DNA of 64,000 bases from Deltaproteobacteria bacterium. Its GTDB lineage: Bacteria > Desulfobacterota > Desulfomonilia > UBA1062. How positions within the stretch are numbered: the stretch's first letter is position 1; the number at the start of each line of letters is the position of its first letter. The notes under the pieces were generated by a model. The model saw nothing but the letters and a program-made list of their open reading frames with translations, was not told the origin of the DNA and made no database searches. Positions 47,902 to 55,784 of the stretch are shown piece after piece. The stretch spans positions 1 to 64,000 of the forward strand of contig JAHDOV010000009.1 in NCBI GenBank assembly GCA_018434685.1, read 5' to 3'. A program made the position numbers and the translations under genes.

Positions 47902-49062
47902 TCATACACACCTCAGGAGCCACTGCATAGGTGCCTTCCTGATCGTGATCGCCCCTTCGGGACAGACCTCCTGGCAACAGAAACAACGTATACATCTTCC
48001 GTAATCAAAGACCGGGACCTTCCTGCCGGCACCTGCCGGGCTGATCGCCTCTGCCGGGCATATCTGCTGGCACTGATAGCAGAGCGTACAGGAAGGCTCC
48101 ATGGGGACCGGTCTCTCCACAAAGAGTCTCTTCATGATCCTGCGGGGAAGATCCCTTTTCAGGAAAGCCGTCATGCCCGGGCTCCTGGGCGGGACAAAGC
48201 CCTCAAGCCGCATAGCCTCGATCGTTTCACCCTTCACGGCGATATCATCAGGGGATGCAACGCCGAATTCACGGGCAAAGCCCGAGTTGACGGTTGGAGC
48301 CAGCCGGCTGTCGAGACCGGCTATTTGCACCGCGACATAATCGACAGCCAGAGCGTCTTCTCCCACGATTATGGCACCGGCGTGCCGGGGAGATCCGGAC
48401 GAGCCCGGCCCCTCACCTTCCAGCGCCACAACGGCATCCAGGACGTGGAGGATCCTTTTGGGCGGTTCGAACCCGGCGAGGAATGCCCCGTAGAGGTCCA
48501 GGATCATTTCGGAGAATTCCTCCCTGCCGGGAAACCTCATGTGCATCTGCGCCTTTCTCATGCCGGGCACGGCCCCGAACAGGTTTTTCACCGCAGCGGT
48601 GATATAGGTGAGGTTATGGGTCTTGAACTTGGGGATGTTGACGATGACATCTGTCTCGAAGAATGCAGCGGCAATATCGAAATAGGTGAACAGCTTCGGG
48701 CTGCGGCAGGCAATTCTCCGCACTTCCCTGATGTCGGCTACCGCAATGCCCAGTTCCCTGACAATGGGATCATATCCGGCCGCATGCATGGCATTTTCCA
48801 GGGATGCCACGGCAGGCGACTCGATGAGCACCGGCTTCCCGCCATGATCCAGCACGATCTCCGCCACTGCCCGGAAGAATACCGGGTGCGTGACAACGCC
48901 GCTGTCAGGCTGGACGGCAGAGAGGAGATTCGGTTTCAGGGCCACGCGGGCACCCCTGAAGCATGCCGGGTCGAAGCCGATCAACCCCGCTGCCTCGAGG
49001 ATGTTGTCCTTCACTGTCCTGAGCGAATATTCCCTGCACGATACCAGTGCCACCTCTGCCAT
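47902..49062 (-). CDS. DUF362 protein with two [4Fe-4S] ferredoxin motifs
   Basis: 386 residues from ATG 49062 (GGGAGATC upstream). The DUF362 domain fills about 1-310: VALKPNLLSAVQPDSGVVTH, VIVNIPKFKTHNLTYITAAV, KNLFGAVPG. At the C-terminus come two cluster motifs, CTLCYQCQQICP and CIRCFCCQEVCP, both C-x2-C-x2-C-x3-C. No signal peptide. Family is frequent in anaerobes; function not established. A second copy lies at 54.6 kb. Confidence 0.93.
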   Translation of the reverse strand: MAEVALVSCREYSLRTVKDNILEAAGLIGFDPACFRGARVALKPNLLSAVQPDSGVVTHPVFFRAVAEIVLDHGGKPVLIESPAVASLENAMHAAGYDPIVRELGIAVADIREVRRIACRSPKLFTYFDIAAAFFETDVIVNIPKFKTHNLTYITAAVKNLFGAVPGMRKAQMHMRFPGREEFSEMILDLYGAFLAGFEPPKRILHVLDAVVALEGEGPGSSGSPRHAGAIIVGEDALAVDYVAVQIAGLDSRLAPTVNSGFAREFGVASPDDIAVKGETIEAMRLEGFVPPRSPGMTAFLKRDLPRRIMKRLFVERPVPMEPSCTLCYQCQQICPAEAISPAGAGRKVPVFDYGRCIRCFCCQEVCPEGAITIRKAPMQWLLRCV

Positions 49063-49189
49063 AGATCTCCCTCTCCCTGCAGTCACACCGATAAGTATCT
49101 ATCATCACTCAGGTCTCAATGCCAGTGTTTCATGGCAGGTCGCCTGTCAGGGCAGTGATCAGGTCCAGGTGAGAGGGCTGAAGCGAATA

Positions 49190-51089: not shown

Positions 51090-51431
51090 TCAGTGAGGGA
51101 ATACGACATCCATCACCTCAAGGGCAAAGCGTGCAGCAACCGTGGCCGGGCCTCCCCCCATCTCGATACCCACCTCGACGGCCTCCAGCACCTCTCGTTC
51201 GCCTGCGCCTGCCTGGACCGCCTGCTCGATATGCCACTGCATGCAGCTCTCGCAGTTCATGACCACGGAGATGCCCACCGCGATGAGCTCTTTGTGTTTC
51301 TTTGCGAGCTCTCCGTCTGAGAAGGCTGCCTTTTCCATGTCGAGGAATGCCCGGTAAACCGGTGAACCTGACTTGACCAGCTTCGCATGCGCCCACTTTC
51401 TCTTCCGGGTAATCTCTTCGAGTTTGTTCAT
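51090..51431 (-). CDS. AhpD-like carboxymuconolactone decarboxylase family protein
   Basis: 113 residues. Single CMD domain with redox motif CESCMQWHI (C-x2-C followed by His), as in AhpD alkylhydroperoxidases; K/E proton relay KHKELIAVGISVVMN upstream. Cysteine is used here rather than selenocysteine known in some relatives. AAGGAG about twelve bases before ATG. A likely disulfide-based peroxide or redox function; partner unknown. Confidence 0.93.
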   Translation of the reverse strand: MNKLEEITRKRKWAHAKLVKSGSPVYRAFLDMEKAAFSDGELAKKHKELIAVGISVVMNCESCMQWHIEQAVQAGAGEREVLEAVEVGIEMGGGPATVAARFALEVMDVVFPH

Positions 51432-52428: not shown

Positions 52429-52890
52429 TCACGTTTCCTTATCGCTGAAATACTCCCTGCGGACATACAGGTACAGCACGAACCCCCACCAGGAGGCGAC
52501 GAACAGCAATGTAGCCACGGCAAAGAGCTGGTAGATGGACTTGCTGTCCATGACCTGGAGGATCTCCCGGTAACTCCCCATTTCCTGCAGGAGGTACGCT
52601 TCCATGAAGGTGCGGTCCAGGAGAAACAGCACCTTGTCGAGCGTGTAGACCAGACCTCCGGCAAAGGCCGCCTTATAACCCCAGCTCTTCGGGGCCCACA
52701 GACCGATGCCGATCACCAGGAAAAAGGCCATATAGATGAGGTGGTACACGGCCGCCACAGCCCCGGTGCGGACCGCGCCCAGCAGTGGGACCGCCGAGGT
52801 CACCGACAGTAGCTCGAAAGCGGCTGAAGCCAGGAAGATCACGCCGGCAGTCCGGATGGTAAATGTGCCCTTTGTTTTTCTCTTCGTCAT
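52429..52890 (-). CDS. Hypothetical integral membrane protein
   Basis: 153 residues from ATG 52890 (GGGAGG five bases upstream). Four hydrophobic segments (IRTAGVIFLASAAFELLSV, VYHLIYMAFFLVIGIGLW, around 95, and FAVATLLFVASWWGFVLYLY), positive-rich N-terminus. No family recognised. Its start overlaps the stop of the upstream DUF1722 gene by four bases, so the two are translationally coupled. Confidence 0.87.
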   Translation of the reverse strand: MTKRKTKGTFTIRTAGVIFLASAAFELLSVTSAVPLLGAVRTGAVAAVYHLIYMAFFLVIGIGLWAPKSWGYKAAFAGGLVYTLDKVLFLLDRTFMEAYLLQEMGSYREILQVMDSKSIYQLFAVATLLFVASWWGFVLYLYVRREYFSDKET

Positions 52891-53603
52891 GGAACTACCT
52901 CCCTGCACCAGTACGCCAGTTCTCCCAGGGCAGTGGACTGCAGGAGATACGCTCTGTCGTGCCTGCACGACTGCACCTGTATTTCACTAATGAGTTCATA
53001 CAGGCTTGCTGCCTGGGGATCAACCGAAGAGTAGCCGGACACATAGCCCCACATGTGAAAGAGGGCATTTTTAAGCGATGCCGGCGACGGCACGGACCGC
53101 AGGCACGAGACCAGTTCGCACGACAGTTCGCCCAGGGTGATGTCCTTACTGGAAACCAGTGGACCGAACTGTTTGTATCGGTTGTAGTCCCTTGCCATCA
53201 CGGAATATTTATGCCGCGCCCACAGATCCTGTATATTCCCGGGAAGCGGGAGACGTCCCTGGTTCTTATGCTCATACTTCCTCTTGAGGATCTCGAACTG
53301 CCTCTCAGGTGCATCGAGGTAGTTCTGCGGCCATGATGCGCTGTGCCCCTGTACCGGAAGCGGGCTTCGATGCCTGAACCCGCGCAGTGCCATCTCTTCG
53401 ACCAGAAGGGCATGACGCACGGCCAGACCGCCCAGAAACCCTGCCCAGCGGAGCGTCTCCGGGTGCCTGGAATAGCCCCTCTTGTGGTTCAGAACAATGG
53501 AGACGATGCCATGCAGTTCCCGGTGCTCGCCGAGAAGGCTCTTGTCATTCAGGAAACCGGCATCTATATCCCATATCCGCACGGGATTCTCCCACTCCGT
53601 CAC
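52887..53603 (-). CDS. Pyrimidine-dimer glycosylase-like domain fused to DUF1722
   Basis: 238 residues from a GTG start. N-terminal half (RIWDIDAGFLNDKSLLGEHR, RGYSRHPETLRWAG) resembles the Pyr_excise/endonuclease V-type pyrimidine dimer glycosylase. C-terminal half has DUF1722: LWARHKYSVMARDYNRYKQF, then ALFHMWGYVSGY. DUF1722 proteins are often near photolyase genes, so a DNA-repair role is likely; no photolyase is in the window. Confidence 0.8.
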   Translation of the reverse strand: MTEWENPVRIWDIDAGFLNDKSLLGEHRELHGIVSIVLNHKRGYSRHPETLRWAGFLGGLAVRHALLVEEMALRGFRHRSPLPVQGHSASWPQNYLDAPERQFEILKRKYEHKNQGRLPLPGNIQDLWARHKYSVMARDYNRYKQFGPLVSSKDITLGELSCELVSCLRSVPSPASLKNALFHMWGYVSGYSSVDPQAASLYELISEIQVQSCRHDRAYLLQSTALGELAYWCREVVP

Positions 53604-53768: not shown

Positions 53769-54557
53769 TCAGGCAAACCTCTGCCCACGCCAGCGGTACG
53801 GACTCTCGAGAATGATCCCGGGCACCCGGGCAGTCTCGAGCAGGTTCAGGCAGTCTTTGAATATGGTCGTCTGCTGGGGCCTGTTGCCTGCCTCGCCAAG
53901 CGCGTGTCCGAACGGATACCGGAGAAAGTAGGTCCGGGGAGGTTTGATAGCCACCGTGATAGTCCTCACCAGCGAGATACCCACCGTAGACATACCCCGC
54001 GATTCAATTTCCCGCTGAATCAGACCGACCGTCTGATTGCAGATCCCTCAGGCAGGCACCAGGAAGACGATATCCACCCCTTGTCCCTGCAAGGCTGTGG
54101 CGATCTCTTTCGCCGTCTTCTCCACGAGATACGGCAGATGGGGCAACACGATATGCCCCATGAGGCTGTAGAAGAATTCTGATGACCTGCCGACGATTCC
54201 CTCCTCCTGGCAAGCCCGCAGGATATCGATGGGCAGCACCAGGTTGATGTCAGAGTCAGCATCGGTGTGGTCGTAATAATCATGGGTGATCATAAGATCA
54301 CTCTTCGTGGCAGTCGAAGGGATCGTCCGGTAGCTGGGATCGCCATCTTTGTCATCCATGTTGAACGGGGCATCGTTCTTCAGGTGAACCCCGCCCGTGG
54401 TGATGAGAGCGATCGTGCACCTGGCCAGAGGTTTCGTAAGCGGGGTCCACGGTATGGCCTCAGACGTGACGGGTGTGAATTTCTCTTCCCATCGCTGCCG
54501 GACCCAGGGGATTTTAAACAGGGCCATCTTGAATCTCTTGATCGGCTTGTTTTTCAT
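53769..54557 (-). CDS. Orphan GrdB/PrdB-family selenoprotein
   Basis: 262 residues when the in-frame TGA (plus-strand 54048-54050) is read as selenocysteine (U170). ATG 54557 has AGGGA seven bases upstream. Family segments: FKIPWVRQRWEEKFTPVTSE, IPWTPLTKPL, ALITTGGVHLKNDAPFNM, GDPSYRTIPSTATKSDLMIT, HDYYDHTDADSDINLVLPID, FFYSLMGHI, then DIVFLVPA-U-GICNQTVGLI giving a U-x2-C motif as in D-proline reductase PrdB and glycine reductase GrdB. The same frame runs on through VGLIQREIESRGMSTVGISL to a TAG/TGA end with HALGEAGN. Size is like PrdB (about 240 residues), shorter than GrdB. No GrdA, GrdE, GrdC/D or PrdA is in the window, so its reductive substrate is unknown. SECIS-like hairpin follows. 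Confidence 0.93.
54018..54038 (-). promoter_or_regulatory. SECIS-like hairpin for the UGA of the GrdB/PrdB-like gene
   Basis: On the minus strand AATCAGAC-GGTCG-GTCTGATT, a perfect 8-bp stem with a 5-base loop starting GG. The loop starts 17 bases after the UGA, within the bacterial SECIS range. The loop starts GGTC as in the rhodanese gene. Confidence 0.85.
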
Positions 54558-54634
54558 AGGCACATCCCTGCGGGCCCGCGCTACCCGCCCTGTTCCACAC
54601 CCTTTTCCTGTTTCGATATTCCCTCATCCTGACA

Positions 54635-55702
54635 TCACTTAAGGATTATGGCCTTTTCGGGACAGATCTCCTGGCAGCAGAAACACGTGATGCAGGTCCC
54701 GACATCCACCCTGGGGAGGCTCTCCCTCATGGTCAGGGCCGAGACCGGGCACTGATCGATACAGGCACCGCAGCCCGTGCACAGCCCGGGATCGGCCTGG
54801 GGACGCAGCATAACCCGGTTATCGACCAGCGACTGCAGGGCATCGTTGTGGGTGGCCGCCTCTCCCCCCAGGGGAGGAAGCCTGAAACCGGGCAGCTGCC
54901 TCAGTTCGCCGACAACCTCGATCGTATCAAGGTCATAATCTCCCAGTCCGAGTTCCTTTGCCCTCTGCAGAAACCGCAGCCTGCCCGGCTCGCATCCCAT
55001 CATCAATGCAATGACCGCATCCAGGGCAACGGCATTGTCCGAGGCCAGAATGAGCCCGATATCCCTCAGATCGGGAGACGCCGGACCATTGCCTTCCATA
55101 CCGACTATGGCATCCACGATAAAGAGGTCTGGGATACGAAGCCGGAACACATCGACCACTGCGTCGTGAAAGCGAGCGGGACTGCCCGCTGCCTTGTGCA
55201 GCACGGCCTTCTGGCCACCGGGCAGAAGCCCGTAGCTGTTCTTGATCGCCCCGCTCATGACAGTCAGGCCGTGGGTCTTGAATTTCGGCAGGCTGATGAT
55301 GATATCCGCATCGAGGACTGCCTGGGAAAGGCTCACCGTGTCCATGAAATCGGCATTGAAGGCAACACGGCCGGTATCGATGCCGATGTTGCGATAATAC
55401 CCCCTGGCTGCTGCCATGAGGCCTGTGGTACGGAAACTTTCCTCGTTCCGGCCATAGCTGAACATGCCCGGGTTGTCTCCCACGATGATCTCTGCGGGTT
55501 TTTCTTTCTCCACCACGTCCACCACGGCACGAAGCACTGCAGGATGGGTGACGATGCCCTCTTCGGCCTGTGAGGCCCGCAGCACGTTTGGCTTTATGAG
55601 CACCCGTCTGCCCTTAAGCGGCAGGGGGAACAGCTCAAAGGCCCTCTCGACGGCCCCGCGGACCTGCTCATACGTGGCTGGATGGATCAGCACTGTAGAC
55701 AT
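54635..55702 (-). CDS. DUF362 protein with two [4Fe-4S] ferredoxin motifs (second copy)
   Basis: 355 residues from ATG 55702 (GAGGTG upstream). DUF362: RVLIKPNVLRASQAEEGIVT, DIIISLPKFKTHGLTVMSGA, IKNSYGLLPG, IPDLFIVDAIVGMEGNGPAS. Two cluster motifs at the C-terminus: CTGCGACIDQCP and CITCFCCQEICP. Same architecture as the protein at 47.9 kb but clearly diverged. It lies 77 bases before the GrdB/PrdB-like selenoprotein on the same strand, so electron supply to that protein is a possible role. Confidence 0.93.
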   Translation of the reverse strand: MSTVLIHPATYEQVRGAVERAFELFPLPLKGRRVLIKPNVLRASQAEEGIVTHPAVLRAVVDVVEKEKPAEIIVGDNPGMFSYGRNEESFRTTGLMAAARGYYRNIGIDTGRVAFNADFMDTVSLSQAVLDADIIISLPKFKTHGLTVMSGAIKNSYGLLPGGQKAVLHKAAGSPARFHDAVVDVFRLRIPDLFIVDAIVGMEGNGPASPDLRDIGLILASDNAVALDAVIALMMGCEPGRLRFLQRAKELGLGDYDLDTIEVVGELRQLPGFRLPPLGGEAATHNDALQSLVDNRVMLRPQADPGLCTGCGACIDQCPVSALTMRESLPRVDVGTCITCFCCQEICPEKAIILK

Positions 55703-55784
55703 GGTCGACACCTCGCTTTCTCAACTATGACAAACTCCGGTGCCCGAGTCAATTTTCACCTCGCATGCACCCTGTGATGGGCTG

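Follow-up and report, generated by a model that had tools for sequence, protein, structure and literature searches.

The window, the 64,000-nucleotide stretch of DNA that we analyzed, carries on its minus strand a gene (54557–53769) that encodes a single protein of 262 residues, including Sec170, when its in-frame TGA is translated as selenocysteine (Sec). This joining of two frames had been proposed in a preliminary description that named no strand, and it holds. The start is taken as ATG 54557, from which Sec170 is counted, with an in-frame GTG at 54563 as an alternative; the stop is TGA 53771–53769. The product contains the motifs TTGGVHLK, PSYRTIP, THDYYDHTDAD, SLMGH, and PA-U-GICNQTVGLIQ, and the call of a selenoprotein gene at 53769–54557 draws on this translation, on family matches, and on 80 related loci that share its motif. 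Upstream, 77 nt away and on the same strand, lies a gene (54635–55711) for a DUF362 protein with a 2x4Fe-4S ferredoxin part (PF04015, 172 bits), the iron-sulfur neighbor of the preliminary description. The downstream boundary is formed by a minus-strand gene (52887–53603) for a pyrimidine-dimer glycosylase/DUF1722 protein (PF03013, PF08349), which has no homolog in the related loci. Nearby, also on the minus strand, 51090–51431 encodes an AhpD-like carboxymuconolactone decarboxylase with Cys in its CESCMQWH motif; marine surveys have recorded selenoproteins among the relatives of this family.

The in-frame UGA (54048–54050, minus strand) specifies the first residue of UGIC and opens a bSECIS-like hairpin (54010–54050, minus strand; core stem 54037–54019), whose apical loop, GGUCG (54030–54026), begins 20 nt past the first base of the UGA. 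The 45-nt segment from the UGA onward has a folding energy of −15 kcal/mol (z −3.1), and none of 200 shuffled sequences was equally good. When 74 distinct homologs were compared at the same distance from the UGA, 95.6% of stem cells were paired, and 36 cells showed compensatory change on both sides (7.7 ± 2.2 in shuffled controls); moving the stem partner by 1–3 columns abolished the pairing signal. Because these bases encode protein as well, some of the pairing reflects protein conservation. Concerted changes in both arms, for instance Ser UCC and Gly GGA versus Thr ACG and Gly GGU, are nevertheless hard to explain except by pairing of the stem. The reading frame is conserved for 92 residues beyond the UGA, where G178, E185, R208, H218, and W256 are invariant or near-invariant. 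A possible further SECIS by the terminal TGA was folded and rejected (z +2.0), and TGA 53771–53769 was therefore taken as the stop.

Neither of the replacements that the preliminary description had considered for close relatives, a Cys or a stop, was found at the Sec position. UGA is conserved in 79 of the 80 related loci, the sole exception being GGA (Gly) at L066:8499–8501 (also seen in L155, from the same contig), with the hairpin intact. The near-identical L079 and L081 keep TGA at this point, which leaves natural loss or a base-call error in L066. Close relatives, defined by our own threshold of 284 bits or more against profile A1, occur in 33 of 395 genomes of the phylum; the TGA lies inside the gene in 32 of these 33, and the remaining one (G435) is almost certainly the same gene as L066. 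The genome also encodes tRNA-Sec (71.8 bits; gathering threshold 47) and SelB (345 bits; cut-off 242). Given the covarying hairpin, the near-complete retention of UGA, and the presence of Sec machinery, the in-frame UGA very probably encodes selenocysteine.

Among protein families, TIGR04483 (PrdB) gave the best match (174 bits, E = 3e-51), below its equivalog cut-off of 300 bits, which was reached in none of the 395 phylum genomes (best 205). PF07355 matched with 52 bits (cut-off 22) but only over its positions 209–345, TIGR01918 scored 68.6, narrowly above its cut-off of 65.45, and TIGR01917 was covered only at positions 206–409. The scores for PF07355, TIGR01918, and TIGR04483 show that the likeness is not due to chance, and the status of the window protein as a true Sec-containing member of the GrdB/PrdB superfamily is supported.

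Comparison with PrdB reveals homology over the full length, a shared UxxC motif (with Sec in most PrdBs), and up to 36–39% identity with the best bona fide PrdBs. Since true PrdB is also only about 241 residues long, the window protein is PrdB-length and not a short GrdB, as had been thought; its size is the expected one. The preliminary description had also credited it with the whole GrdB/PrdB signature. The motifs listed there are indeed present, but the claim was overstated: the window protein reads THDYYDH, MGHI, GHALGEA, and CN where PrdB has SHGGYDN, MGGGG, GANAGEP, and CH, and at the HDYY site both true PrdB and GrdB read HGGY, so that HGG is missing from the window protein. Further differences from PrdB are the extra N-terminal helices, the lack of an adjoining PrdA or CBO2463-type gene, and a position outside the PrdB clade. 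With GrdB/GrdF/GrdH (PF07355, TIGR01917/01918), homology covers the C-terminal half including the Sec site; unlike GrdB (about 430 residues), the window protein has no N-terminal half (about 200 residues), no HGG, and no GrdE and GrdA partners. The alphaproteobacterial "Glycine/sarcosine/betaine reductase selenoprotein B family protein" of Roseomonas and Haematobacter is likewise standalone and shares the site, but it has Cys for Sec (PNCPxCHQT), is about 300 residues long, and lies on a distant orphan branch. The Roseomonas homolog (L150:3944–4852) adjoins SelO, and that of Haematobacter (L151) lies beside cobalamin genes.

In a tree rooted with GrdB as the outgroup, the PrdB clade (91/85) stands apart from all orphans (96/96), which comprise subfamilies A (with the window gene), B, C, and D and the Cys-containing alphaproteobacterial proteins. 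Judged by the missed TIGR04483 cut-off, this position outside PrdB, and the lack of HGG, the window protein is not a proline reductase proper. Support for subfamily A as a single clade is moderate (61/82). Its members carry the labels SAR324, Thermodesulfobacteriota, Deltaproteobacteria, Nitrospirota, Nitrospinota, Chloroflexota, Methylomirabilota, Rokuibacteriota, Tectomicrobia, Binatia, and Wallbacteria; many of these records are metagenome-assembled genomes, and single taxon assignments may be wrong. Carriers available in culture include Geothermobacter hydrogeniphilus (L088) and Geomonas limicola (L104). The window gene is 64% identical to SAR324 genes, versions in the same family group as the host are 43–48% identical and sit on another branch of the tree, and the gene is absent from both genomes of the host genus that were searched. 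This pattern suggests that the window gene was acquired by horizontal transfer. In subfamily C (L009:1519–2358, L011:1387–2259), Sec is kept and the second Cys is missing, UPLD replacing UxxC. Subfamily D (L013:967–2196, L015:398–1612) has UPFCTRAVGG and about 405–410 residues, with some 150 extra residues at the C terminus.

The absence of partner subunits near the gene, pointed out in the preliminary description, extends to the whole genome. The 99% complete assembly (G000) was searched for PF09338 (PrdA/GrdE), PF04723 (GrdA), and PF07355. Neither PF09338 nor PF04723 had a match, and the single PF07355 match was the window gene itself; the better GrdB or full reductase operon that might have been encoded elsewhere was thus not found in this genome. 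As positive controls, PF09338 and PF04723 were both detected in genomes G337 and G395. Across the 395 genomes, PF09338 was found at 22 places in 18 genomes, in every case with a GrdB-type gene at most about 2 kb away. It was never beside a subfamily-A gene in the 33 Desulfobacterota genomes with close relatives, and elsewhere in these it occurred only in G116 and G434, each time on another contig, next to a GrdB-type gene distinct from the subfamily-A one. Plasmid-borne true PrdBs sit near prdA and a CBO2463-type gene. One orphan falls within the true PrdB clade: the "prdB" of a Peptoclostridium acidaminophilum plasmid (L149:2977–3690) has HGG and Sec, and no prdA lies in the 6.7 kb shown. These data support the view that the window gene is an orphan at the level of the genome and that its relatives, as a group, are without PrdA/GrdE partners.

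We also checked the link to DUF362, for which a co-occurrence analysis had been suggested. A DUF362 gene is near the selenoprotein gene in only 1 of the 80 related loci, where it lies 2.4 kb off on the opposite strand, and the two closest relatives (SAR324, 63–64% identity) have EF-G directly upstream. DUF362 was therefore rejected as a partner, and the neighbor looks incidental. A second DUF362 protein with 4Fe-4S motifs is encoded about 5.5 kb from the first (47902–49086, minus strand), which shows that DUF362 is no rarity in this part of the window. An operon scan of 82 adjacent same-strand neighbors found no Pfam family in more than 5, and hence no constant partner. A possible arsenosugar link was dropped; TIGR04283 matched four neighbors, largely generic glycosyltransferases. 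Neighbors of subfamilies B, C, and D (RND efflux pump, acyl-CoA dehydrogenase, SDR, ACT-domain protein) share no common theme. Overall, no pathway can be named from such diverse gene contexts.

The AlphaFold model (pLDDT 96.5, pTM 0.93) has two N-terminal helices followed by a Rossmann-like α/β domain, with Sec170 placed between strand 163–167 and helix 173–186. Fold searches of the PDB returned only generic Rossmann-like matches and no close relative among the matches listed (Foldseek gave E = 0.018 at best, and VIA-align Z = 8.8 at best, for microcystinase C alongside many Rossmann-like folds that tied with it), and a profile search of PDB sequences gave nothing convincing. Residues conserved in subfamily A are His58, Arg77, His92, Tyr94, His97, Asp103, His135, Sec170, Cys173, Arg208, and His218. 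Of these, His58, Arg77, His92, Asp103, Arg208, and the Sec/Cys pair are common to PrdB, as is Glu185. Cys173 of the UxxC motif (54039–54041, minus strand), the putative resolving cysteine, is invariant in the 61 aligned members of subfamily A and is found in true PrdB. Tyr94, His97, His135, and His218, present in 61/61 aligned members, stand where PrdB has Gly, Asn, a gap, and Ala. Since these residues sit near C-terminal strand ends or in the following loops, the invariant His58, His92, Tyr94, His97, His135, and His218 probably line a pocket in the modeled fold.

The N-terminal segment (54468–54557, minus strand), recognized from AlphaFold helices 4–13 and 17–26, the hydrophobic moment, and the alignment with PrdB, is basic and absent from true PrdB. 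Its median net charge is +3, and it is amphipathic in about half of the members by a shuffle test; the helix of the window protein itself is weakly amphipathic, with a net charge of +6 in the best helix window. The basic amphipathic helix of many members suggests peripheral membrane binding, and this helix, together with copper ATPase and cytochrome c neighbors in some lineages, gives weak hints of a location at the membrane.

In the mechanism proposed for the glycine and D-proline reductases, the Sec selenolate attacks a carbon of the substrate, a carbonyl or pyruvoyl adduct sits on a partner subunit, and the cycle ends in a selenenylsulfide (PMC10298544). The window protein keeps the scaffold and UxxC, but it has no member of the partner family at its side in the genome, and the motifs of its probable pocket are altered. 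For these reasons we favor, with some reserve, a single-subunit, Sec-dependent, thiol-recycled reductase, belonging to an orphan group sister to the D-proline reductase subunit PrdB and acting on a substrate that brings its own leaving group. The selenolate of Sec170, at the N terminus of a helix after a β strand, would attack a small electrophilic molecule able to react without a pyruvoyl subunit to activate it as a Schiff base; candidate bonds would be carbon-heteroatom or heteroatom-heteroatom bonds with a leaving group of their own. Cys173 would then resolve the Se-substrate adduct, giving a Sec-S-Cys selenenylsulfide that a cellular dithiol system would reduce again. Recycling through UxxC cannot be universal in the wider orphan group, in which subfamily C is without the second Cys. 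A substrate with its own leaving group has likewise been proposed for the GrdB-like, Sec-based monofluoroacetate reductase encoded by the farB/farE operon of Cloacibacillus (PMC10838667), but there the GrdB-type protein has a GrdE-like partner and an operon, neither of which accompanies the window gene.

Less likely is a redox housekeeping selenoprotein acting on peroxides, disulfides, or sulfoxides through Se-O or Se-S chemistry and cleaving no carbon-heteroatom bond. The UxxC motif and the lack of a fixed operon partner would fit such a role, as would its presence in Chloroflexus, Nitrospinota, and SAR324, among which some are exposed to oxygen, and the place of the "PrdB" family among the commonest selenoproteins of surface seawater (PMC2398784). 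The predicted fold, however, is Rossmann-like α/β, akin to the substrate-cleaving subunits of Grd/Prd and not thioredoxin-like, and the large set of invariant His, Tyr, and Arg residues exceeds what a dithiol exchanger needs.

The strongest recurring theme in the gene neighborhoods bears on another reading, that of a membrane protein linked to copper or another soft metal or metalloid, in which Sec, Cys, and His would bind the metal or form a redox site responsive to it. A copper-type P-ATPase occurs in 11 of the 80 loci (L046, L047, L058, L060, L061, L066, L079, L081, L094, L098, and L109), always within 2.2 kb and in 10 cases on the same strand, and a small cytochrome c is directly upstream in six (L055, L060, L066, L072, L079, and L081); the invariant His residues and the basic amphipathic N terminus also speak for this reading. 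The association requires six changes on the tree and involves at least four separate lineages, but most linked loci are from one clade, which leaves it thinly supported, and no copper ATPase is near in the other 69 loci or in the window. As a general link it was set aside, being real in some lineages and absent from most loci, and we regard a metal-linked function as improbable.

More doubtful still is a genuine reductase of D-proline to 5-aminovalerate, or of a similar amine, working with a carbonyl-bearing partner from an unrecognized family encoded elsewhere. PrdB is the best family match, identity to bona fide PrdBs is appreciable, and D-proline reductase is likewise membrane-associated (PMC13188914); against this, the genome has no PF09338, the curated PrdB cut-off is missed here and in all 395 genomes, SHGGYDN, MGGGG, and GANAGEP are replaced, and the related loci have no constant neighbor. 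That the gene is decaying, or that its product is a 169-residue protein truly ending at the UGA, where standard gene calling terminates the open reading frame, is hardly credible in view of the 92 conserved residues past this codon, the SECIS covariation, and the Sec machinery of the genome.

Surveys since 2005 have counted standalone UxxC "PrdB" proteins outside the clostridia (PMC1088965, PMC1794560, PMC2398784). They list 42 proline reductase PrdB selenoprotein genes from the Sargasso Sea (PMC1088965), PrdB selenoproteins in Anaeromyxobacter and Geobacter uraniireducens (PMC1794560), and 235 Sec and 110 Cys forms of PrdB in the GOS data (PMC2398784); they use the proline reductase name, and their available sections test neither partners nor pocket motifs. 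Matched by description only, these proteins very probably belong to the same wider orphan group as the window protein. The suggestion of the preliminary description that the enzyme may be new is weakened accordingly, although we found no functional study of orphan "PrdB" selenoproteins in the open literature: the window protein is an uncharacterized variant, not a new kind, and the database name of proline reductase or PrdB is probably wrong or misleading for it. A bolder version of the single-subunit reductase, which we put forward tentatively, is that of a distinct Sec-obligate, membrane-associated class that uses the Grd/Prd scaffold on a new substrate with no pyruvoyl/GrdE partner, spread over many phyla and hidden under the name "proline reductase."

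Unless PrdA has been checked for, a "PrdB" count in a marine or other non-clostridial selenoproteome should not be taken as a sign of proline fermentation. The cleavage of selenium-carbon bonds by the glycine and D-proline reductases is unusual, and how it proceeds is unsettled (PMC10298544). If confirmed, a relative that retains the Sec scaffold and works as one subunit, with no pyruvoyl partner, would separate the selenium chemistry of these enzymes from their carbonyl chemistry.
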